Source: Parerythrobacter aestuarii (GTDB lineage Bacteria; Pseudomonadota; Alphaproteobacteria; Sphingomonadales; Sphingomonadaceae). From it: a DNA stretch of 64,000 nt. This document shows positions 2,294-19,005 of this stretch, in pieces. Below the pieces are notes generated by a model. That model did not search any database. It was not told the DNA's origin and saw nothing but the letters and a program-made list of their open reading frames with translations. A program made the translations under genes and the position numbers. The DNA lies in contig NZ_JARBWD010000001.1 of NCBI RefSeq assembly GCF_030140925.1, positions 1,178,001-1,242,000 of the forward strand, in the 5' to 3' direction. Position 1 is the first letter of the stretch. Each line of letters opens with the position of its first letter.

Positions 2294-3205
2294 ATGGCAG
2301 CTTTCACTTATCACCACTCGGGACTGTTGGTGCGCTCGGAGCTGGAGCTGCCTGAATGGCATGCTTTTGCAGTGGAACCCGACGACAGGGAACCCGACGC
2401 GCACATCCGCTTTGCCAGCGACCTCGGCGAGGCCGCGCCACCTGACCACCGCCCCGTGATGGAGGGTGATGCACTGCGTTTCTCCGTCCCCGACGTCGGG
2501 ACATGGCGGATCGAGGGGGGGCGAGAGATCGCGATCGAACCCTTTGATGAGCCCAGTTCCATCGAAGTGCGGCTGTTCACGCTCGGCAGCGCCTGGGGCA
2601 CGCTCGGCTACCAGCGTGGCTGGGCCATGTTGCACGGCAGCGCAGTGATGGGGCAACAGGGAGCGGTGCTGTTCTGCGGCCCGCAGGAGGCGGGCAAATC
2701 GACCATGGCGGCAGCGCTGACGGTGCGTGGGCTGCCGCTGGTGGGGGATGACCTCAGCCGCGTAGTGCCGGGCCGGACCGACCGGGCAACCCTTCTCCAC
2801 CCCTCCAGTACGCGGCACAAGCTGTGGCAGGAAGCCATCGACACCCTCGACCTAAGCGGACGCGAGCTGGTGCAGGACTATTTCCGGGCCGAGAAATACC
2901 ATCTCGAAACCAGCGAGACTGTCGCGGTCGACCGCCCGGTGCCGCTGGCGGCGATCTATGCGCTGGAATTCGGTGATGAGCTGTCAATCGAGCGGCTCAA
3001 AGGCGGCGGTGCCGCTACCTCGGTGCTCAAGGAAACCATCTATCGCCCGCGCTTCCTCGAAGCGATGGGGCGGCTGGCCGAACAGGCCGTCTACGCCGCC
3101 CAGATCGCCGGCTCCGTGCCCGTCTACCGCCTGACGCGCCCGCGCGACCTGGCGCTGCTCGACGACGTGTGCGAGCGGGTGCTGGCGGAGATGAGGGTGG
3201 AGTAG
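2294..3205 (+). CDS. HPr-kinase-like P-loop protein
   Basis: This 303-residue protein has a Walker A loop GPQEAGKST at residues 129-137 and a downstream GDDLSRV at 151-157. The same pair, P-loop plus GDD, marks the C-terminal domain of HPr kinase/phosphorylase. The N-terminal 110 residues match no family I recognise. HprK-like proteins of this size in proteobacteria are often of unknown function or sit beside PqqD/RiPP genes. None is present here, and no HPr gene is visible in the window. It begins two bases after the GNAT gene and is probably its operon partner. Substrate and role are unknown. Confidence 0.75.
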   Translation: MAAFTYHHSGLLVRSELELPEWHAFAVEPDDREPDAHIRFASDLGEAAPPDHRPVMEGDALRFSVPDVGTWRIEGGREIAIEPFDEPSSIEVRLFTLGSAWGTLGYQRGWAMLHGSAVMGQQGAVLFCGPQEAGKSTMAAALTVRGLPLVGDDLSRVVPGRTDRATLLHPSSTRHKLWQEAIDTLDLSGRELVQDYFRAEKYHLETSETVAVDRPVPLAAIYALEFGDELSIERLKGGGAATSVLKETIYRPRFLEAMGRLAEQAVYAAQIAGSVPVYRLTRPRDLALLDDVCERVLAEMRVE

Positions 3206-3373: not shown

Positions 3374-3544
3374 TCACTCCTCGCGGACAATCTCTTCCGG
3401 GGACGCCGGACGGCCCGGGACGGAATAGCCATCGTTGAACCATTGCGCGAGATCGCGATCCTTGCAGCGGCTGGAGCAGAACGGGCTGAACTCCTCGCTG
3501 CGGGGCTTCTTGCAGATCGGGCAGGGGCGGGGCTTGGCGCTCAT
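3374..3544 (-). CDS. yacG: DNA gyrase inhibitor / zinc-binding protein YacG
   Basis: A 56-residue zinc-ribbon protein with four cysteines in the YacG arrangement: CPIC at residues 8-11 and C23, C27 in FCSSRC, followed by the conserved KDRDLAQWFNDGY. The family binds zinc; E. coli YacG binds GyrB and inhibits gyrase. The ATG at 3544 overlaps the stop of the upstream RNase E/G-like gene (ATGA), so translation is coupled. This adjacency is common in alphaproteobacteria. Confidence 0.93.
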   Translation of the reverse strand: MSAKPRPCPICKKPRSEEFSPFCSSRCKDRDLAQWFNDGYSVPGRPASPEEIVREE

Positions 3545-4500
3545 AGCGGCACCGCCTGAACGTTTCCCGCGCCGAGTGCAATGCCCGGATCGGCGCGGAG
3601 GCGGAGCGGTACGCCGCGCCGTCGCAGAAACTCCTCTTCCCATTCGGGGCGAATCTTGGCCAAGACAGCGGGGTGCGCAGTGATTTCGATTGCGCCAGGG
3701 CCTGCGGTCTCTTCGGCCCGCAGCAGGAGGTAGCGGGCTGACGCGCCCGCCCGATCGAACTGGATGCGGTGCAAGAGCGACGGTCGCTCGAGCCGAGATA
3801 CCAGTTGGACAAAGCCGAACCCGTTCATCGCCGTACGCTCGTGATCCCAGTCGGCAAGCGCATCAGCCAGGGCATTATCGACCTGTCGCCGGTCGGCCTT
3901 CGAAGGCAAGGTCGGAAAGTCGATCCCGATCGAACCCGACAGGTCGAGCAGGGCAATGGCGCTGGCGACAGATTCGACGGCTGCCAGCGCCAGCTCGCGC
4001 GGCGGCAACTCGCCGTCCACATCGATCAAGGTCATGGCTGGCGTTGGCGTAATCGTCAGCGAGCCTCCGGCAAACGGCCAGTCGCTGTCCCAAGCTCCCG
4101 ACCAGATCTCGGCCCAGGTGTCGCGATAGAAGCCGTTCACCACCTTCGCGCCCAGTCGCTCAGCCAATGTCGGCGCAGGCCGCACCGCTTCATCGGTCAC
4201 GCGTGCGTGAGCAAGCTTGTTGCGTCCGGCCTCGGCGATGGCCGCGCGGGTAATTCGAAAGCGCAGCGTTGCGCCTTCGCTGGCATCCCGGGGCAGGTAG
4301 TCTACGAGCGCTTCCTCGCCGCTGGGGAAACGAGCGCGGCCGCGCGACGAATTCCTCGGGTGGTGGACCAGGACTCCTTCGATGACCTGTCCTGGAGACA
4401 GCTCGCCGGGCCAGTCGATCTTGGCCGCGAAATAGCTTCCTTCACCGCACAATACGGCGCGGTGCTCCCCGATCCCTTCGACGACGTGCCACTCAGCCAA
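3541..4500 (-). CDS. short ribonuclease E/G-like protein
   Basis: At 319 residues this is a shortened relative of the RNase E/G catalytic region. Residues 1 to about 80 resemble a degenerate S1 domain. The catalytic core is recognisable from LIDVDGE through LLDLSGSIGIDF, which aligns to the E. coli segments SIDINSA and RDLGGLIVIDF. The first metal aspartate and the one in IDF are kept, but the asparagine of DxN is aspartate here (DVD). The CPxCxG zinc link of RNase E/G is missing. It sits between maf (8-bp overlap) and yacG (ATGA overlap). Activity is plausible but unproven because of the DxD change. Confidence 0.82.
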   Translation of the reverse strand: MAEWHVVEGIGEHRAVLCGEGSYFAAKIDWPGELSPGQVIEGVLVHHPRNSSRGRARFPSGEEALVDYLPRDASEGATLRFRITRAAIAEAGRNKLAHARVTDEAVRPAPTLAERLGAKVVNGFYRDTWAEIWSGAWDSDWPFAGGSLTITPTPAMTLIDVDGELPPRELALAAVESVASAIALLDLSGSIGIDFPTLPSKADRRQVDNALADALADWDHERTAMNGFGFVQLVSRLERPSLLHRIQFDRAGASARYLLLRAEETAGPGAIEITAHPAVLAKIRPEWEEEFLRRRGVPLRLRADPGIALGAGNVQAVPL

Positions 4501-5068
4501 GGGCGAACCCCGCCGCCTTTAGCAACGCGCGCGTCTCGAACAATGGCAGGCCGACTACGCCTGAGTGGCTGCCGTCGATGCGGCTGATCAGTCCTTCGGC
4601 GCTGCCCTGTATGGCATAGCCGCCGGCCTTGCCATGCCATTCGCCGCCCTCGATGTAGGCGTCGATTTCACTGGTCGAGAGCCGCTTGAACACCACGATT
4701 GTCTCGCTCAGCCGCTCGCGCAGCGTGCCGTCGGGCGCGCGCAGGGCGATGGCGGAGAGCACGCGGTGGCGGCGTCCCGACAACAGCTCCAGGCATTGCC
4801 GCGCGGTCGCTTCGTCTTCGGCTTTGGGCAGGATCCGCCGCCCGCAGGCGACCATGGTGTCACCGGCCAAGACGAAACCCTCGCTCGATGCTGCTGCCTC
4901 GGCCTTCTCCCGCGCCATGCGCACGGCATAAGCGCGTGGGAGTTCGCCTTTCAGCGGGGTCTCGTCAATATCGGCAGGGGCGATTGCAGCCGGTTTAAGC
5001 CCCAACCGCGCGAGCAGTTCGCGCCTACGGGGACTGGCTGATGCGAGGATGAGAGTGGGCTTGCCCAC
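4493..5068 (-). CDS. maf: Maf family nucleotide pyrophosphatase
   Basis: The 191-residue protein begins with the Maf signature LILASASPRRRELL and carries the later motifs LAGDTMV, ILPKAED and GYAIQGSAEGLI. Maf proteins hydrolyse non-canonical or specific nucleoside triphosphates to monophosphates and act in nucleotide house-cleaning. It lies six bases after infA and overlaps the RNase E/G-like gene by 8 bp, so infA–maf–RNase–yacG forms one leftward unit. Confidence 0.94.
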   Translation of the reverse strand: MGKPTLILASASPRRRELLARLGLKPAAIAPADIDETPLKGELPRAYAVRMAREKAEAAASSEGFVLAGDTMVACGRRILPKAEDEATARQCLELLSGRRHRVLSAIALRAPDGTLRERLSETIVVFKRLSTSEIDAYIEGGEWHGKAGGYAIQGSAEGLISRIDGSHSGVVGLPLFETRALLKAAGFALG

Positions 5069-5074
5069 AGCAGC

Positions 5075-5332
5075 TTATTGTGGGCCCGGACCCTGGCCCG
5101 GCCCGCCACGGCCCGGCATGAAGCGGTAGGTGATGCGCGCCTTGGTCAGGTCATACGGCGTCAGCTCGCACAGGACCTCGTCGCCTACCAGCACGCGAAT
5201 GCGGTTCTTGCGCATCTTGCCGGCGGTGTGGCCCAGCACTTCATGGCCATTCTCGAGCTCGACCCGGAACATCGCGTTGGGCAGCAGTTCGACTACCTTG
5301 CCGCGCATTTCGAGGAGTTCTTCTTTCGCCAT
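5075..5332 (-). CDS. infA: translation initiation factor IF-1
   Basis: An 85-residue S1/OB-fold protein with [19 protein letters not shown] and [13 protein letters not shown], both diagnostic of IF-1, which binds the 30S A site during initiation. It is longer than the usual 72 residues because of a glycine/proline-rich C-terminal tail ([14 protein letters not shown]), which is seen in some sphingomonad IF-1 proteins. It heads the leftward unit. Its promoter must lie in the 212-bp gap before the divergent receptor gene at 5545. Confidence 0.97.
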
Positions 5333-5544: not shown

Positions 5545-8466
5545 TTGCGTCAGTTCGCTGTCCTCCCCCTGATAGCTATAGTATTCGCATCACCGGCATT
5601 GGCTCAGGAAAGCGGAACGCCTCCTGACGGTGGCGATCAACGTGCGCAATCCACCTCCGATGTCGATACAGATGGTGAAATCGTCGTACGCGCAGGGCGA
5701 TTGCCGGGACAGCTAGATGTGCCGCAGGAGCCGCTGGTCGAGCTCGATGCCGAGGATATTGCCGCCTATGGCGTGAGCTCGATCGAAGACCTTGTGGCGC
5801 AGCTCGAACCGGCCACGGGCTCATCGACCGGGCGCGGGGGCGGGGGACGCCCGGTGTTCCTGATCAACGGTATTCGCGTCTCCAGCTTCCGCGAGTTCTT
5901 TGCCTATCCGCCCGAAGCCTTGCGCAAGGTCGAAGTGCTGCCGGAAGAGGTCGCGCAGAAATTCGGCTATCCAGCCGACCGGCGGGTGGTCAATTTCATC
6001 CTCAAGGAAAACTTCTCCAGCCGCACGGTTGAACTGGAATACGAACAGCCCTGGGATGGCGGATATTCGCGAACAGAGCAGGAATTCACCCTGCTCAAGC
6101 TGACCGACAAGGGGCGGATCAACCTGAACCTCGAAGCGCAAGACACCTCGCTGCTGACCGAATCCGAGCGCGACATCATCCAGACGCCGGGGAGTTTGCC
6201 GACCGTGCCGGGCGATCCCGATCCCGCCACCGGTCGCAGCCTGATCAGCGACAGCGCCGGGATCGAAGGTACGCTGAGCTACACGCAATCCTACCAGGAA
6301 AGCGGTGCTACCTTGAGCCTGACGGGGAACCTCGAACGAAACGACAGGCGCTCGCTTTCGGGGTTCAATACCGTCACATTGGTCGATGGGGCGGGCAACA
6401 GTGAGCTGCGCGCTTTCGGCGAGCCGCTCGAAGTTCGCAGCCGCACCGACAATGCAAACGCCTCGCTTGGCTACTCCCGCCCGATCGGCGACTTCCAGCT
6501 GACGGTGACAGCCAATGCCGGGATAGTCGATACGACGACGGAGATCGACCAGCGCGCCGACACACTCATCGTCGAGCAGCAGGCATTGGCCGGGGCGCTG
6601 GCCCTCGATGGGCCGCTCGGCAACCTCCGCAGCACCGCCTTTGATACCGCGCGCACGCAGTCGACCTCCGCCAGCACGAAGGCGACCCTGCGTGGTTCGC
6701 CGTTCAGGGTGCCTGGCGGGGAAGTCAACGTGACGTTCGATGCAGGCTACAACTGGAGCCGGATCGACAGTGAAGACACCCGCGGTTCCGCAGCCACCCA
6801 GCTGACCCGCGGAGTCATCGATGGTGGCATCAGTGTCAACATCCCGCTCACCACCGAACGAGAGAATTTCCTCGGTGCACTGGGAACCATCGGGCTCAAC
6901 CTCCAGACCGGGTTCGATAATTTCTCCGACTTCGGAACGTTGAATGATTGGTCGGCAACGGTCTTCTGGCTTCCGTTCGATAACGACATCTTCCTGAGCG
7001 CAACCTATTTCGACCGGGAAGTTGCCCCGTCGCTGGCGTTCCTGGGTAATCCGCGGATCGAGACCTTCAATGTCCCGACCTTCGACTTTCGCAACAATAC
7101 GACGGAGCTGATAACAGTCATTTCCGGCGGAAATCCGAACCTGTTGGCGGAAAAACAGAAGGACTGGAAATTCTCCGGCAATGTCAAACTGCCGATCAAG
7201 GCGGACATGCGGCTCAATGTCACCTATGCCCGCAATCGCTCGGACAATGTCTCGCGTTCATTCCCGGCGCTGACCGACGCGACTGAAGCAGCCTTTCCGG
7301 GCCGGGTGACACGCACCCTGGCGGGCACGCTGGTGGCTGTAGACCGCCGCCCGGTCACCTATGCCGAAGCGCGGTTCGAAAGTCTCAATATCGGGCTGAC
7401 CTTGCGCGGGCAGATTGGCGGCGGGGGCGGTTCGCGCGGTGCCGGACAGGGCGGTCGCCGTGGTGGGCCACCGGCGGCAGGCGGTGGCGACGCGCCCGCA
7501 AGTCCGCCTGCGACCACGGGTGGCGCGAGGCAAGCGGTGGGCGGCCCTGGCGGCGGCGCACAGTTCCAGCAGATGCGCGAGAAATTCTGCGCCAATCCCG
7601 AAGGCGAGATGCCCGATCTCACCGGCATCCCTGAACGCATGCTGGCGCGACTGCGGGGCGAAGATGGCAAGATCGATCCGGCCAAGGTCAAGCAGGCGCG
7701 CGAGCGAATGTGCGGCGAAGACGGCGCGGAGCAGGGCGAGCGCTTTGCAGCGATCCGCAAGGCCCTTTGCGCCGATCCACCGAAGGTCGACGATTTGCCC
7801 GAACAGATGCGGGCGCGCCTGCGCAATGAAGACGGCACGATCAATGCCGAGCGACTGTCGCAGATGAAGCAACGGATCTGCTCTGCCGAAGGTGTGCAGC
7901 AAGGCGAAGGTCAGGCAGGGCAACAAGGAAAGCCGGCACAAGCAGCACCTGCGGTCAACTTCAATCCGTTCGACCGGCGTGGAGCGCGCGGCACGCGTTA
8001 TTTCCTCAATGTGACCCACACGATTGAGTTGAGCAATACGATCCTCGTTGCACCCGGAGGGCCGCTGCTCGACGAACTGGCCGGAGACTCGGTCTCCGCC
8101 TTCGGTCTGGCGCGGCACAAGACACGGTTTTCGAGCGGGATATTCTTCGACGGCTACGGGTTCCGCGCCAATGGCAACTACACCGGGTCCAGCACGGTGC
8201 GTGGCTCCGGGCTGCCGGGCAGCACCGACCTGTTCATCGGCGACCTGCTGGAAATCAACCTCTTCGCCTTCGCCAACCTCGGCGAAGTCTTCAAGCAAGA
8301 GGAAGGCCTACTGAAGAACTTCCGTGTCAGCCTGCGGGCGGACAATGTCTTCAATGCCCGCCGCACTGTGCGCGACAGCAATGGCAACACGCCGCTGAGT
8401 TATCAGCCGGATTTGCTCAATGCGACCGGCCGCTATGTCGGGATCGACCTGCGGAAGCTGTTCTGA
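5545..8466 (+). CDS. TonB-dependent outer-membrane receptor with internal Cys-repeat insert
   Basis: A 973-residue outer-membrane receptor. Residues 1-20 (ending ASPALA) form a signal peptide and DGEIVVRAGR is TonB-box/plug-lead-like. A plug follows (PVFLINGIR, GYPADRRVVNFIL), then a long beta-barrel ending at a C-terminal phenylalanine (DLRKLF). The start is a TTG at 5545: a stop codon (5536-5538) closes the frame just upstream, and an AAAAGG site sits about 10 nt before it. Residues 625-671 are a Gly/Pro-rich linker, and residues 673-786 are two cysteine-bearing tandem repeats, described separately. The substrate is unknown. The gene stands alone, ending 4 bp from the convergent hydrolase. 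Confidence 0.88.
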   Translation: MRQFAVLPLIAIVFASPALAQESGTPPDGGDQRAQSTSDVDTDGEIVVRAGRLPGQLDVPQEPLVELDAEDIAAYGVSSIEDLVAQLEPATGSSTGRGGGGRPVFLINGIRVSSFREFFAYPPEALRKVEVLPEEVAQKFGYPADRRVVNFILKENFSSRTVELEYEQPWDGGYSRTEQEFTLLKLTDKGRINLNLEAQDTSLLTESERDIIQTPGSLPTVPGDPDPATGRSLISDSAGIEGTLSYTQSYQESGATLSLTGNLERNDRRSLSGFNTVTLVDGAGNSELRAFGEPLEVRSRTDNANASLGYSRPIGDFQLTVTANAGIVDTTTEIDQRADTLIVEQQALAGALALDGPLGNLRSTAFDTARTQSTSASTKATLRGSPFRVPGGEVNVTFDAGYNWSRIDSEDTRGSAATQLTRGVIDGGISVNIPLTTERENFLGALGTIGLNLQTGFDNFSDFGTLNDWSATVFWLPFDNDIFLSATYFDREVAPSLAFLGNPRIETFNVPTFDFRNNTTELITVISGGNPNLLAEKQKDWKFSGNVKLPIKADMRLNVTYARNRSDNVSRSFPALTDATEAAFPGRVTRTLAGTLVAVDRRPVTYAEARFESLNIGLTLRGQIGGGGGSRGAGQGGRRGGPPAAGGGDAPASPPATTGGARQAVGGPGGGAQFQQMREKFCANPEGEMPDLTGIPERMLARLRGEDGKIDPAKVKQARERMCGEDGAEQGERFAAIRKALCADPPKVDDLPEQMRARLRNEDGTINAERLSQMKQRICSAEGVQQGEGQAGQQGKPAQAAPAVNFNPFDRRGARGTRYFLNVTHTIELSNTILVAPGGPLLDELAGDSVSAFGLARHKTRFSSGIFFDGYGFRANGNYTGSSTVRGSGLPGSTDLFIGDLLEINLFAFANLGEVFKQEEGLLKNFRVSLRADNVFNARRTVRDSNGNTPLSYQPDLLNATGRYVGIDLRKLF
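7561..7905 (+). repeat. two tandem ~60-residue Cys-containing repeats inside the receptor
   Basis: Residues 673-786 of the receptor repeat with a period of 60: C682 and C742 open the units, C723 and C779 close them. Shared elements are an opening helix ending in CA(N/D)P, a central PE(R/Q)MxARLRxEDGxI, and a closing R(M/I)C followed by an acidic, glycine-rich QGE turn. A 47-residue glycine/proline-rich linker comes before the repeats. Similarity is at protein level; the DNA copies have diverged. Confidence 0.8.
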
Positions 8467-8470
8467 TCGC

Positions 8471-9271
8471 TCAGTGCAGCTTGCCGGTCGGGAAGGCGAG
8501 GCTCGCCAACCCGCGCGCTTCGAACGGCTTCCACTGTCCTTCGTCCTGCGCCAGCCGGTCGGCAATGGCATAGGCAACCAGCGGGTTTACGCCGAGGCCG
8601 CAATGGCTGGCGTGGACGAGGATATTCTCCGTCTCGCCGCCTTCGTCAGCCTGCACTGACCCGCGCCAGTGAACCACGCCATCGGTCTTGGTCAGGATCG
8701 ACGTTGTCGGCACCGGCGGGGCCTTGCCCAGCTGCAAGAACTTGCCTCCTTGCATCGGCTCCGGCTCCTTGCCGTTGAGATACTCGAACAGCTTGCGCGC
8801 ATTGGTGTGGTTACGGTCGTCGCTGATGGGACTACCGAGGCTGATGACGAAACGCACATGGTCAGGCATCATCTTCGCCAGCTCGCGCGCAAACACGCCG
8901 CCCAGCGACCAGCCGACAATGGAGACCTTGCCACCGCTTTGCGCGTGTAGCCGCGCCACGCAATCCTGCATGGCTTCGATACGGATGTTGTCGACCCGGA
9001 CATTTCGGCCCAGGCCCCAGCCCGCGGTGCGATAGCCGAGATCATCGAGCAGCGAGCGCAGCGGACGGGTCGAGCTGTCAGAAGCCATGAAGCCCGGCAG
9101 CACCAGCACGCCGTGCCCGTCGCCCTTGGGCAGCTGTCCCAGCAAGGGGCGCAAGGCCATGAAGGCGGCCAGTTCGCTCAGCGCGCGGCCCGGCTCTGCC
9201 AGGGTCAGGAGCTTGTGCGGCGGTCGGGCCATCGAAGCCTCGCTGTCCAGCGTCAGTGGTGCTGTTGCCAT
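8471..9271 (-). CDS. alpha/beta hydrolase
   Basis: A 266-residue serine hydrolase with the nucleophile elbow GWSLGG (S122) and an early GVLVLPGFMASD segment that would form the oxyanion region. The length suits a lipase/acylesterase-type hydrolase. Its ATG at 9271 overlaps the stop of the upstream WS/DGAT gene (TAATG), so the two are coupled and probably act on the same neutral-lipid pool. The exact substrate is unknown. Confidence 0.85.
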   Translation of the reverse strand: MATAPLTLDSEASMARPPHKLLTLAEPGRALSELAAFMALRPLLGQLPKGDGHGVLVLPGFMASDSSTRPLRSLLDDLGYRTAGWGLGRNVRVDNIRIEAMQDCVARLHAQSGGKVSIVGWSLGGVFARELAKMMPDHVRFVISLGSPISDDRNHTNARKLFEYLNGKEPEPMQGGKFLQLGKAPPVPTTSILTKTDGVVHWRGSVQADEGGETENILVHASHCGLGVNPLVAYAIADRLAQDEGQWKPFEARGLASLAFPTGKLH

Positions 9272-10905
9272 TATGTGGTGTTCCTCCTGCTACCCGAAGA
9301 TTTCCTGCGTTTTGGCGCCGCCTTCTTGGCGGTCGTCGTTTTTCTGGTGGTCTTGGCCCCGGTTGCGGGGTTGGTTCCCGTCCGCGCCTTGGTCGAAGCC
9401 TTCTTTGCCGGTGGTTTCTTGGCGGCTGGCTTTTTGGCCGGAGCTGGCTTGGCCGGTGCCTTGGCGGGCGTCTCGCCGAGCGCCCTGGCCGCATCGCGCA
9501 GCTCGTTGAAGCTGTCTTCGATGCACTGGATGTAGAATTCCGGATCTGGCAGCAGCTCGCGGCAGGCGGTGAAGCTGATGGTGGCTTCGTCGCAATAGCT
9601 TTGCACCACGTGGCCAAGGCCGAGCCCGTCGTTGAGACACAGCAACCCCATCATGCTCTCCAGCCGCGCGCCGGTAGAATAGATCGGGATCGGCGGACCG
9701 GGAACATTGGTGACCACGGTCGAGAATGGCGGTCCGACCCCACGATTGGCGAGGCCGAGGCGGGTATAGAGCTGCGCACCCAGGCTCATCCACAAAGCCG
9801 GCGAAACCTTGCTCATCTCCGTCATGTTGCGCGCGCCCATGGCGTCGGTCATGGCCTTGGAATTGACGGTCTTGGAATGGACGTATTTCAGCCGTTCCAC
9901 CGGGTCGGCGATATGCGTTCCGAGCGGCGCGATCATCGCTGCCACCTGATTGCCCATGTCGCCTCGCTCGTCCGAAGAGCGGACAGAGATAGGGGCCATG
10001 GCGGTCATCGTCGCCTTGGGCAGGTCACTCTTGGCGGTGAGATATTTGTTGAGCGCTCCGCCGACGATAGTGAGGAACACGTCATTGACCTTGCAGCCGG
10101 GATCGAGCGCGCGGATTGCCTTGATATCGGCCAGCGGCACGCTTCGGCCCTCGACCACGCGGTGGGCTGAAACCTTGCGGTTGAAGCGGGTACGCGGGGC
10201 AACCATGTCGCTCGACAGCTTGAATTCCTGCGTCAGCAAGCCCTTGATGGCATTGGCGAGGCCGGGGGCCGCCTTGGCAGCAACTTCGATCTGCTTCACC
10301 GGGTTGGCGAGGGCCCCGATATAGGCCTTGCCCAGCAGTTCGGCCGGGCCGGGGACACGCTCCGGCTTCCACTCGTCGGGCGCATTGGGCGGCGGCTGGT
10401 TGGGATCGAGCGTGTGCATCGCTTCCATCAGGTCGATCCCGCTCATCCCGTCGATGGCGGCATGGTGGACCTTGGTGACCATGGCGAAGCTGCCCGGCGC
10501 GACACCCGGGATATTGTCGAGCCCCTCGACCACGGTGAATTCCCACGGCGGCTTGTTGAGATCGAGTGGGCGGGCAAATATGCGCGCGGCCTGGATGCAC
10601 AGCTGGCGCCAGTCGCCGGGCTTGGGCAGGGCGATGTGGCGGACGTGGTATTCGAGATCGAAGTCCGGATCCTCGATCCAGTAGGGATAGTCGAGGTCGA
10701 ACGGCACCCGTACCATGCGTTGGCGAATGGTCTTGGACAGCTGCATCCGGCTTTCGAAGAAGCTGAGGATATCCTTGAAGCGGACGAACCCGCCCGGCGC
10801 CGTTTCCGGGTTGTAAATAAGGATTGAGCCGATGTGCATCGGCGAAGTTGGGCTCTCAAGCGCCACGAATGACGCATCCATCCCCTGCAGCTGGCGCAAA
10901 GGCAT
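9271..10905 (-). CDS. wax ester synthase/diacylglycerol acyltransferase (WS/DGAT)
   Basis: This 544-residue enzyme has the family opening LRQLQGMDASFVALES and the active-site motif HHAAIDG at residues 147-153, where the second histidine is the proposed base. It would esterify long-chain alcohols or diacylglycerol with acyl-CoA to make storage lipid. Residues 478-544 form a Lys/Ala/Pro-rich tail like histone H1, not part of the normal enzyme. The annotated ATG touches its AGGAGG ribosome site with no spacer. A TTG two codons in (10899) has six bases of spacing and gives the usual MRQL opening, so it may be the real start. It is coupled to the hydrolase downstream. Confidence 0.92.
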   Translation of the reverse strand: MPLRQLQGMDASFVALESPTSPMHIGSILIYNPETAPGGFVRFKDILSFFESRMQLSKTIRQRMVRVPFDLDYPYWIEDPDFDLEYHVRHIALPKPGDWRQLCIQAARIFARPLDLNKPPWEFTVVEGLDNIPGVAPGSFAMVTKVHHAAIDGMSGIDLMEAMHTLDPNQPPPNAPDEWKPERVPGPAELLGKAYIGALANPVKQIEVAAKAAPGLANAIKGLLTQEFKLSSDMVAPRTRFNRKVSAHRVVEGRSVPLADIKAIRALDPGCKVNDVFLTIVGGALNKYLTAKSDLPKATMTAMAPISVRSSDERGDMGNQVAAMIAPLGTHIADPVERLKYVHSKTVNSKAMTDAMGARNMTEMSKVSPALWMSLGAQLYTRLGLANRGVGPPFSTVVTNVPGPPIPIYSTGARLESMMGLLCLNDGLGLGHVVQSYCDEATISFTACRELLPDPEFYIQCIEDSFNELRDAARALGETPAKAPAKPAPAKKPAAKKPPAKKASTKARTGTNPATGAKTTRKTTTAKKAAPKRRKSSGSRRNTT

Positions 10906-10959
10906 CCTCCTGTCCGGCCCACGCCTCGTTCGAAATTGAACGATTGTTGCGCGGAAACG

Positions 10960-10985
10960 CCTGCTTTTGCAGGTCTGTAATACAG
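10960..10985. promoter_or_regulatory. adjacent small palindromes in the WS/DGAT–11088 divergent promoter region
   Basis: Two dyads sit side by side between the divergent genes: a CCTGC/GCAGG hairpin with a TTTT loop (10960-10973) and CTGTA-A-TACAG (10975-10985), followed by a GTAAC. They could bind a repressor of the lipid genes. No promoter boxes are clear. Confidence 0.35.
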
Positions 10986-11087
10986 GCGTAACAGGTGCAG
11001 GCACGACGTCAAGCTGCCGTCCCCGTCAACAGCTTCCCTTACGGAGGGGTTTCCCACAGCGGGGACGCCCCCTAAATCCTTCCCGAC

Positions 11088-15782: not shown

Positions 15783-17417
15783 TCAGGGTGTGCAGCTATC
15801 CCCCGGCTTGAACTGGGCAGCGTTGAGCAGGAAGGTCAGGGTCTTGAACTGGTCTTCCTCGAAGGCCTTTTCCGGAGTGCACTTGGGCTTGGCGGCTGCA
15901 TGGCAAAGGATACAGCTGAAGTTCTTCTGCGTGTAGCTTTCCAGCGCCGCGTTTATGAGATTGTTGGTATTGGTATAGACCCCGGTGATCGGGCCCTGGT
16001 GGCCATTGAGGTTGCGTTCCCCGGGGGTGTCGAAGGCGAACGGGCCCTGATGACGGTTCTGTGTCCCGATCAGGCGATAGAACCGCATGACCGACCGGTT
16101 TCCGCCGACACTGCTGCCCAGCACGGTCTTCTGGTAGTGGTCGTTGATGGCCTCGATCGCATCGCTCAGCGGGGTAACGCGATAGATGTTTACCGGTTTG
16201 CGCGAGGGATTGGTGGTGGTCCCGCTGGAACAGGGGGCCTGCCCCGGCGAACGATCGGCCTCGGGACAAGGGGGGATCCGGCCGGCAAAGCCATAGGCCT
16301 CTTCTTCCGGCGTTTGCGGTCCGCCCCCGGGGTTGAACGAGGGCGTCAGCGTGCCGCCCAGCGGTTTCTCGAAATCGATCGCGACATTGTCGACATGCTC
16401 GAATGTCGCCGCCACGAAAGCGCCTTCGACGCCTTTAGACGGATCATACTTGTTGGGCGTGTAACGCAGGATATGCAGCGCCACGAGGCCATAGAGCTTG
16501 GTCGTGCCTTGGGCATCGACCGCGATCCGGCGCTGCAGGTACCGGTTGTTGTATGGCGCGCCTTCAGGCAGCTCCTTCCACGCTGCCTTAACGTCGACCA
16601 TTCCCTGCCGGGCATAATCCGGCAGCCCGGCAAGGTAGCCGTCGCCGGTTGTCTGTGCGGGATTGCCGAAGGGCGGCCGCTGGAAAGCGTCGGCGGCCTT
16701 GGGATTGGCGATATAGGTCAGCACTGCGTCGCGTTGCCGACCGGCGTTGTAATAGCCGAATTTGCGAATGTAGGTGAAAAAGGCCTGGTTCACAGCCACT
16801 TCGTAGCGGACATAATTGCCGTTCTGGTCGATTAGCGGGCCGGTCGACTGACCGAAGAAATAGGGCTGCTGCACATCCGGGCGATAATCGGTCAGCTGGT
16901 CGGGGAAGGCCAGGAAGGCACGGCTGGTGTCGGTCGGGCTGTTGCCCCAGTTGGCGACGTCGGGATCCTCCCATCGGTCCGAACTGGTAAAGATCTGCTG
17001 CGGGGTCTTGTAAGTTTCCCACACCGCCAGCGGCAGCGTGCCGATCCCGCCGAAGATGGTCTTGCCCCGATCGGGCTGGCCGCGGTTGCCACCGGGGACC
17101 GCCGGCCAGTTCACTGCGATGAAAGAGCGCCACATGAAATCGTAGAACATGCATTGCTGGACCGTGGCAGCCAGCACGGGGTCATTCTTTTCCAGGGCGG
17201 CATCGACCGATGCCCATTCCAGCGGCAGGTACCCTTCCTGACCGGGCAGCCATGGCGCGCCCAGCGCCGGTGCAGGGCCATTACCTGGATCGCAATTGTA
17301 GGCGAAGGACTGCGGAAACTCTGCCGTCGCCTCGGGTCGAGACTCACCGGTCTGTTCCCGGCCATTGCAACCGTACAGCGCCAGTCCCAGCGCGATGGCT
17401 CCGAAAATTGCCCGCAT
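15783..17417 (-). CDS. lipoprotein with one C-terminal c-type haem motif, otherwise unknown
   Basis: A 544-residue envelope protein. It starts [17 protein letters not shown], a lipoprotein signal with lipobox LYGC (C17), so it should be lipid-anchored and exported. Near the C-terminus CILCH (C502, C505, H506) is a CxxCH haem-c attachment motif. The roughly 480 residues between are rich in aromatic and Asn/Gly residues and match no domain I know. A distant relation to cytochrome-c-like oxidoreductases is possible. The frame is open 135 codons further upstream, but that part lies in the regulatory region and looks non-coding. It is divergent from the FadL-type gene across a palindrome, which hints at shared control. 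Confidence 0.8.
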
Positions 17418-17733
17418 GGCACGCACCCCCTCAAGCAGGGTCACTGTTATGACCGGGAAACGCGACTTGTTATGAAGTCGGAACTTGCCGTAGCAATGTG
17501 GCCACATTGTGGGCTGGATCGATTTCTCGGCTCGCTGCCACGCATGGTCGACAGACCGCAATCTTTCGGTGGCCCGATCCGTTTGCCATGCGAGCCCGTC
17601 CTCATGCCGGAACCGTATGTAAATTAGTGAAAAAATTAACCGTTCTTGTGCACATTGCAGAATTGTGACGGTCGTATCAGCAGCGCTGTCACGCCCATCA
17701 ACGGGTCGCAATATAAGAATCAGGGGACAGCTG
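17418..17733. other. 316-bp divergent intergenic region
   Basis: No gene is apparent here. The region separates the lipoprotein and FadL-type genes. It contains the perfect 16-bp palindrome at 17494-17509. A second copy of its half-site CACATTG lies at 17651-17657, followed by an imperfect inverted half AATTGTG (17661-17667). It also has an AT-rich stretch around 17618-17640. The ribosome site AGGGGA for the FadL-type gene is near its right end. Confidence 0.6.
17494..17509. promoter_or_regulatory. perfect 16-bp palindrome, candidate operator
   Basis: The sequence CAATGTGGCCACATTG equals its own reverse complement. It lies 77 bp before the lipoprotein start and 225 bp before the FadL-type start, in a divergent promoter region. 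It could be a dimer-binding site controlling one or both directions. The regulator is unknown. Confidence 0.55.
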
Positions 17734-19005
17734 TTGAACAAGTTCCGGTCATCGCAGCCTCGGCTGCAAGGGACGATTGCATTTGCACTTGTCGCAGCCA
17801 TTACTGCGCCGGCGCATGCCACCGACGGCTATTTCCAGCACGGGGTCGGCGTAAAGGGCAAGGGCACTGGCGGTGTCGCTGTCGCCCTGCCGCAAGATGC
17901 CACCAGCATCGGTGCCAATCCAGCTACTGCGACTGAGATCGACCATCGGGTCGACATCGGCGTGGAAGTGTTCGTGCCCGATCGCTCGGCACAGATCAGC
18001 GGCAATGCCTTCGGCCTCAATGGCAATTACAATGGCAATGGGGCCAACCCCTTTGTCCTTGGCGATGTCGCCTACGTCCGGCCCGTTTCCGACAAGGTGA
18101 CTGTGGGCATCGTATTCTTCGCCAACGGCGGGATGAACACAGTCTACGAAACCAATCCGTTCGGGCCCCTGGGCGGCCAGGGCGATGCCGGGGTGGATCT
18201 CAAGCAAGCCTTCATCATGCCGACCGCAGCGGTGAAGGTTGCCGAGGGGCACAGCGTCGGGGCATCGGTGGTTGGCGTAGTCCAGTCTTTCAAAGCGACC
18301 GGCGTGCAGCCGTTCGCCGGGTTCTCTGCCGATCCGGCCAATTTCACCAATCGCGGCACCGACTGGTCGGTCGGGGTCGGCTTCAAACTGGGATATTACG
18401 GCAAGCTCACCGAAGGGTTTTCGGTCGGCGCATTCTACCAGTCGAAAGTCGGCACGGGCAAGTTCGACAAATATGCCGGTCTGTTCGCCGATGCCGGCGG
18501 GTTCGACGTCCCTGAAAGCTGGGGCGTGGGCGCTGCCGTCGATGTCAGCGACAAGCTGACCGTCGGCGTCGACTACAAGAAAATCAACTACGACAGTGCT
18601 CCGTCGGTCGGCAATTCGATTGCCAGCCTGTTCCAGGGCGTGCCCTTTGGCGCTTCAGACGGGCCCGGCTTCGGCTGGAGCAATATCGACGTGCTCAAGG
18701 TCGGCGCGGTGTGGCAGGCCAGCGACAAGTTTACCCTGCGTGCCGGTTATGGCCGCTCGGAAAACCCGATCCCTGCCAATGAAACCTTCCTGAACATCCT
18801 GGCCCCTGGCGTGGTGCAGGATCACTTCACGCTGGGCGGCAGCGTGCAACTGAGCAGCAAGGCGGAACTCTCCGCCTATGTCATGCGTGCGCCGACCAAC
18901 CGGGTCTCAGGCGCAGGCTCGATCCCGCCAATGCTAGGCGGCGGTGAGGCCGATATCTTCCTCGCTGAAACCTCGGGCGGGCTCTCGCTCGGCTTCACTT
19001 TCTAA
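17734..19005 (+). CDS. FadL/OmpP1-type outer-membrane channel
   Basis: A 423-residue predicted outer-membrane beta-barrel for hydrophobic compounds. After a signal peptide ending in APAHA, the mature start ATDGYFQHGVGVKGKGTGG and DATSIGANPA are typical of the FadL/TodX family N-terminal hatch. The C-terminus ends in the aromatic barrel signal LSLGFTF. I place the start at the TTG at 17734, six bases after an AGGGGA site and just ahead of the signal peptide. A GTG at 17665 is in frame but would add 23 residues before the signal. It leads a row with DsrE2, TusA and a signalling protein, so its cargo may be linked to sulfur rather than fatty acids; that is inference. Confidence 0.88.
   Translation: MNKFRSSQPRLQGTIAFALVAAITAPAHATDGYFQHGVGVKGKGTGGVAVALPQDATSIGANPATATEIDHRVDIGVEVFVPDRSAQISGNAFGLNGNYNGNGANPFVLGDVAYVRPVSDKVTVGIVFFANGGMNTVYETNPFGPLGGQGDAGVDLKQAFIMPTAAVKVAEGHSVGASVVGVVQSFKATGVQPFAGFSADPANFTNRGTDWSVGVGFKLGYYGKLTEGFSVGAFYQSKVGTGKFDKYAGLFADAGGFDVPESWGVGAAVDVSDKLTVGVDYKKINYDSAPSVGNSIASLFQGVPFGASDGPGFGWSNIDVLKVGAVWQASDKFTLRAGYGRSENPIPANETFLNILAPGVVQDHFTLGGSVQLSSKAELSAYVMRAPTNRVSGAGSIPPMLGGGEADIFLAETSGGLSLGFTF

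Follow-up and report, generated by a model that had tools for sequence, protein, structure and literature searches.

The 64,000-nucleotide stretch of Parerythrobacter aestuarii DNA analysed here (the window) carries a forward-strand open reading frame whose product, judged by its sequence and a structure model, is a TonB-dependent receptor with a plug and a barrel, for which we predict a role in uptake. The features of this receptor and of the conserved genes beside it are listed by window position, residues being numbered along the receptor.

3541..4500, minus strand: ribonuclease E/G family protein, conserved neighbour (Pfam RNase_E_G, E 5.7e-8)
4493..5068, minus strand: Maf-like protein, conserved neighbour (Pfam Maf, E 2e-54)
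5114..5332, minus strand: gene for translation initiation factor IF-1, divergent neighbour (Pfam eIF-1a, E 3.2e-27)
5545..8466, plus strand: TonB-dependent receptor, 973 aa, TTG start, no internal stop
5545..5604, plus strand: putative signal peptide, residues 1-20 (MRQFAVLPLIAIVFASPALA), assigned by eye
5677..5694, plus strand: TonB box-like EIVVRA, residues 45-50 (alignment of 8 sequences)
7354..7416, plus strand: barrel strand preceding the insert, residues 604-624, assigned as strand 16, descending (model, alignment)
7420..7557, plus strand: N-side Gly/Pro/Arg-rich linker, residues 626-671 (pLDDT <50 at 625-672)
7558..7725, plus strand: unit 1, residues 672-727, with C682 and C723 (alignment, models, unit comparison)
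7726..7893, plus strand: unit 2, residues 728-783, with C742 and C779 (alignment, models, unit comparison)
7894..7992, plus strand: C-side linker, residues 784-816 (pLDDT <50 at 781-815)
7993..8046, plus strand: barrel strand following the insert, residues 817-834, assigned as strand 17, ascending (model, alignment)

Pfam Plug scores 17.2 bits in the receptor itself, below the cut-off of 23.9; it is found in all eight aligned receptor members at E 0.01 (best E 4.8e-6), and the TonB_dep_Rec barrel in five of the eight at the same threshold. The best Foldseek matches of the model among solved folds are TonB-dependent receptors, with PfeA at E 5.6e-20 and FepA at E 1.9e-18 (probability 1.00; TM-score 0.40 by query and 0.53 by target). 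The EIVVRA segment near the N-terminus, in which I46, V47 and V48 are invariant in 8/8 aligned sequences, is a candidate TonB box by its motif. By eye, some 24 residues separate it from the signal peptide, and an N-terminal signalling domain of the FecA/FpvA type is absent. The last residue is Phe, as tends to be the case in outer-membrane barrels. In plug and barrel, TonB box-like segment, C-terminal Phe and overall fold (Foldseek), the protein is like BtuB and FepA/PfeA. Its cysteines number exactly four, at positions 682, 723, 742 and 779.

The original prediction had described two tandem cysteine-bearing units behind a Gly/Pro-rich linker at 7561-7905. Unit comparison and the cysteine count bear out two units of ~57 residues with the pairs C682/C723 and C742/C779, and the interval does contain them, but the whole insert is larger (~193 residues, 626-818, window 7420-7998). 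The linker is likewise real; it is rich in Arg as well, and it also follows the units. Pooled over 96 receptors, the window's included, linker residues are 36.8% Gly, 12.6% Pro, 12.3% Ala and 11.7% Arg, and in two-unit receptors the arms outside the units have median lengths of 44 and 40.5 residues. Gly, Pro and Arg together peak at 65% of a 40-residue window in this insert; the other 21 plug-bearing proteins of the genome stay at or below 50% in every such window after the plug start, the highest one lying elsewhere than at the insert site. The model places helices at 672-779, between stretches with pLDDT <50. The units form helices set off from the barrel strands, with block-mean pLDDT of 57-81 in the receptor model and 63-89 when the unit is modelled alone, and they are not part of the regular barrel; both their helical fold and the disorder of the linkers are model predictions.

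Location of the insert

The receptor model is middling (mean pLDDT 62, pTM 0.54, eight sequences in the alignment), and at that pTM it yields 24 barrel strands against the 22 expected. Eighteen strands, an even number, precede the insert when counted from the N-terminus, and six follow it (817-834, 857-868, 871-880, 901-911, 926-936 and 964-972), three 3-residue strands after the insert being excluded from a count in which the choice of short strands is a matter of judgement. Since six strands follow, counting back from the C-terminus makes the turn before residue 817 periplasmic. The other turns of the same parity have 2-14 residues in the model, and the twelve loops of opposite parity comprise six with 20-33 residues and six with 3-8.

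Alignments point to the same side. We built a profile from 27 unit-free relatives, omitting the loop, and aligned it to five ordinary alphaproteobacterial receptors; the match runs from a G-N-P stretch as far as the C-terminus (98.4%, E 6.8e-15). A joint alignment puts the insert junction at a short turn of these receptors and at the D-TGPL turn of BtuB. BtuB alone matched the profile weakly (6%, E 0.006), the FhuA turn was not placed at the junction by local or joint alignment, and global hhalign to BtuB and FhuA misplaced the insert region. Model and alignments together give good support for a place in the turn between strands 16 and 17 of a 22-strand barrel (T8 if T1 lies between strands 2 and 3), so that the insert is most likely periplasmic. 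The matching turn of BtuB and the five ordinary receptors has a few residues, whereas here it has ~193 with predicted folded units, in departure from the short periplasmic turns usual for TonB-dependent receptors. The original prediction had the units probably hanging from a loop; strand count and alignments do not support an outward loop, and we rejected a surface-loop domain on these grounds. A folded, disulfide-held domain at a periplasmic turn would, we infer, not have to cross the membrane during assembly.

The cysteine unit and its occurrence

Units 1 and 2 are identical at 22 of 58 aligned positions (38%; E 7e-15 for that single comparison), with a local score of 116 against a mean of 24.3 (s.d. 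4.9, maximum 50) in 2000 shuffles. Across 74 units the most conserved positions are an Arg four residues before the first cysteine (69 units), the Gly of a D/N-G turn (all 74), an Asp after I/V (62) and an Arg two residues before the last cysteine (62). The spacing of the two cysteines varies between 37 and 64; 33 units fall in a peak at 40-41 and 13 in another at 59-60. Because the units had originally been cut out by their cysteines, we repeated the search with cysteines masked in both model and target. It returned 74 unit matches, with both cysteines inside in 73 and one match clipped; of the 50 cysteine-free inserts, 49 gave no match at i-E 0.01, and L089 gave a partial one to the first helix. 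The cysteine pair therefore goes with the whole unit, and since the cysteines are kept or lost in pairs together with it, each unit is probably clamped by a disulfide of its own (C682-C723 and C742-C779), as the original prediction had proposed. L089 and L092 have unit-free inserts that open with a helix like the first helix of the unit and lack cysteines; only the likeness of L089 (i-E 0.0039, against 4.9 for L092) rises above noise, and these helices are possibly remnants or forerunners of the unit.

In ten codon-compared pairs, unit dN was 0.11-0.41, which amounts to 0.8-2.0 times the dN of the barrel stretch ahead of the insert; unit dS was 0.41-2.53 in nine of them and not computable in the tenth, and dN lay below dS in those nine. 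Linker dN exceeded unit dN in nine pairs, by little in three (L030/L085, L066/L071 and L054/L061), and equalled it in L009/L012. A frame error or assembly artefact, which we considered as the source of the units, is unlikely given that relatives carry them in frame and that their dN lies below dS.

The unit appears to be a small uncatalogued domain type, one that Pfam and NCBIfam do not recognise. Unit 1 of the window has no Pfam family and reaches at most 11.6 bits in NCBIfam against a cut-off of 40; when 26 units were compared with Pfam the best E was 0.0026, each family being matched by one or two members only. The sequences of solved structures gave no convincing match to the unit. Against solved folds, the tandem unit had a best Foldseek E of 1.3 and a best Z of 3.1 among 327 chains aligned, and the VIA-align rows (TetR, MntR, calmodulin and others, Z <=3.1) were given no weight. 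Calmodulins head the non-significant Foldseek list, at E 1.3 and up, and the unit has in common with the EF-hand a helix, a D/N-G-x-I-D loop and a second helix. However, position 1 is hydrophobic in 74/74 units, and position 12 is Arg or Lys in 69 and Glu in one; with the acidic ligands of both positions missing, we discarded an EF-hand calcium site. The disulfide may replace calcium as the clamp of an EF-hand-like unit.

Within its own genome, the unit model found the two units and then two matches, at E 0.229 and 2.43, taken as noise. A search of the order (296 genomes, E 0.001) gave unit matches in 77 genomes, all in the window's family, with one match in 24, two in 53 and never more. For the unit matches listed, the surrounding open frame has 871-1203 codons, save in G299, whose two matches share a 392-codon frame near a contig start. 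Searches of a class sample (385 genomes) and an overlapping phylum sample (398 genomes) at E 0.01 found strong matches in that family only; in all three surveys the best 15 or 20 first-look candidates per genome were scored. The weaker matches reached E 2.8e-5 at best and included one inside the family (G201, E 0.0036); those outside were taken as chance, eight loci having been examined by motif scan. Three proteins that are SurA-like to the eye (L154-L156) resemble the middle of the unit over a short segment (E 2.8e-5 to 4.7e-4); the part of them that was scanned has no cysteine pair, and this likeness too was taken as chance. No match to the two units appeared among plasmids and phages at E 0.01. 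As to whether the unit occurs on its own or in other receptors, it recurs in related receptors. The titles and abstract beginnings among the literature matches listed mention no such insert, a weak indication given that subscription papers fell mostly outside the scope.

The related receptors came from a family sample of 149 genomes, 124 of which, the window's own included, have a receptor match at E <=1e-30, and from relatives on named contigs (three Croceicoccus, one each of Porphyrobacter, Parasphingopyxis and Altererythrobacter, and a Sphingomonadales bacterium). The insert was cut from 96 receptors: 29 of 30 family-sample loci, 7 of 12 named-contig loci and 60 further places, taken by rank among the family matches, from 59 genomes (two in G088), with lower-ranked ones left out. 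Also left out were L001 (a piece of the receptor in the window), L019 (truncated at a contig end) and L040-L044 (match in the plug part only), and, from the tree, L079, whose core is identical to that of L035. The 96 inserts have no cysteine in 50 cases, four in 28 and two in 18, with no other number. Among the 95 distinct receptors, 49 have no unit, 18 one and 28 two. Within the genome, the composition of the insert agrees with the expectation that receptors rarely carry such an insert, but 46 of the 95 related receptors are unit-bearing.

On a tree of the 95 receptors without the insert, unit number requires at least 19 changes (by a quick method with a simple model). Presence versus absence of units requires eight, six of them forced by well-supported branches, gains and losses being indistinguishable on this unrooted tree. 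Among the 28 receptors with two units, unit 1 is matched best by another such receptor's unit 1 in 22 cases, and unit 2 by a unit 2 in 17. The units of L026 match one another best, with 68% identity, as a recent tandem copy would. Insert loop lengths vary widely among related receptors. In unit-free relatives the loop at this turn spans 23-112 residues (median 52) and is as a rule rich in Gly, Pro, Ala and Arg; a receptor from another family of the class (L168 in G651, E 1.1e-150) likewise shows a Gly/Pro/Arg-rich loop there, without cysteines. From these loops, the tether may be older than the units. Another relative, L171 (G091), has a loop of ~55 residues there that is not Gly-rich.

The IF-1 gene adjoins the receptor on the opposite strand in 77 of the 96 loci, and the Maf and RNase E/G family genes lie beside it in 76 each. 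IF-1 accompanies 43/46 unit-bearing and 34/50 unit-free loci; the three unit-bearing loci without it are L011 and L014, which have another neighbour, and L020, which begins at a contig end. In L009, L056 and L066, IF-1 is called "downstream", which we read as an artefact of overlong open frames. Where IF-1 is missing from unit-free loci (16 cases), these are possibly paralogues. The changes in unit number fall mostly in a corresponding gene next to IF-1, Maf and RNase E/G.

Possible roles of the insert

TonB binds TonB-dependent receptors from the periplasm, and to our knowledge it is not settled how a receptor obtains the right TonB. The genome encodes seven proteins with a TonB C-terminal domain over the cut-off and at least 22 plug-bearing receptors. 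We tentatively favour a reading in which the insert is a disulfide-clamped docking knob on a disordered tether, with a partner and a function that we infer. A Gly/Pro/Arg-rich tether fixed to the barrel at both ends would hang beneath it, on the side where TonB docks, and show two tandem helical units; these could hold or position a periplasmic partner, the first candidate being a TonB-type protein, and so tune energy coupling or partner choice. Such a knob, on two arms of ~40-45 residues rooted at T8, could keep a TonB protein near or choose among the seven of the genome, and its reach or avidity may depend on whether there are no, one or two units. The units are not needed for the basic task of the receptor, since about half of the relatives lack them. 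A more ambitious version, in which the insert, a folded and disulfide-clamped module on two disordered arms that was repeatedly acquired, lost and duplicated in corresponding genes, is an adjustable second docking site that selects among several TonB proteins or another partner and represents a new receptor architecture, is possible but in our opinion doubtful.

Known receptors offer partial parallels. The signalling domain of FecA, FpvA and FoxA is likewise a folded periplasmic appendage; it precedes the TonB box, whereas the present insert lies inside the barrel sequence, is predicted to be helical, has paired cysteines and varies in number. The FecA domain can block TonB access (PMC11658791); in that paper a FhuA-TonB figure legend also labels turns T8 and T9 for reference, a label and not a contact. 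Closer to the docking knob, periplasmic loops of HasR add to the binding of the TonB-type partner HasB by calorimetry (PMC11633176), and those of FoxA contact TonB (PMC6699858). However, the HasR loops tested in the former study are L1, L4 and L10 in the paper's own numbering, neither the eighth nor the ninth, and they engage the partner as loops rather than as a separate domain.

Other explanations of a periplasmic insert start from the same features. Flexible arms of the lengths given above could reach the cell wall, and with Arg abundant in the linkers and conserved in the units, Arg/Gly arms and Arg-rich helices might bind an anionic polymer, so that the units would anchor the outer membrane to peptidoglycan or another part of the envelope. 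Against this, the Pfam and NCBIfam matches include no peptidoglycan-binding family, and units are absent from about half of the relatives; we consider such a tether unlikely. T8 might instead simply accept low-complexity growth in this clade, the units being a neutral repeat, which would suit the 19 changes of unit number, the widely varying loop lengths and the many unit-free receptors. Yet unit dN stays below dS, even if it is up to twice that of the barrel, cysteines are lost only together with a whole unit, and the unit fold is predicted with fair confidence from few sequences, so that we hold tolerated expansion to be improbable too.

The placement of the insert under the barrel exit, as given by model and alignment, together with the D/N-G-x-I-D loop, would also fit units that catch a substrate or metal leaving the barrel and pass it on in the periplasm. 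The unit alignment contains no conserved His or Met, however, and the residues at the two EF-hand positions are unsuited, being hydrophobic or mostly Arg/Lys, which makes hand-over less probable still. As for binding of an external ligand or metal by disulfide-held units in a surface loop, extracellular loops of TonB-dependent receptors can hold disulfides. They are also the longer loops in such receptors, as the HasR study describes (PMC11633176). Strand parity from both ends and the alignment with ordinary receptors lead to a periplasmic turn instead, which leaves this reading highly improbable. The ligand binding once suggested for the units does not agree with their location, as a periplasmic insert would not meet an external ligand before transport, and metal binding fares no better, as no conserved metal-ligand set is apparent and the conserved residues besides Cys are Arg, D/N-G and Asp.

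Should the docking-knob reading hold, it would show that a folded domain can be borne by a periplasmic turn of the barrel, and the related receptors, which differ in having no, one or two knobs facing the TonB-docking side, would form a natural test set. The analysis also defines a small domain that Pfam and NCBIfam had not recognised.

Elsewhere in the window, the protein encoded at 2294-3205 (plus strand) has no Pfam match at E 0.001 and looks by eye like an HPr-kinase-type P-loop protein, and a 679-residue open reading frame at 15783-17822 (minus strand), likewise without a Pfam match at that threshold, has a CxxCH motif close to the C-terminus, of the kind found in c-type cytochromes. At 9271-11004 (minus strand) lies a wax ester synthase/acyltransferase (Pfam WS_DGAT_cat, E 2.3e-65) that ends in a Lys/Ala/Pro/Thr-rich tail of ~65 residues, by eye resembling a histone H1-type tail.
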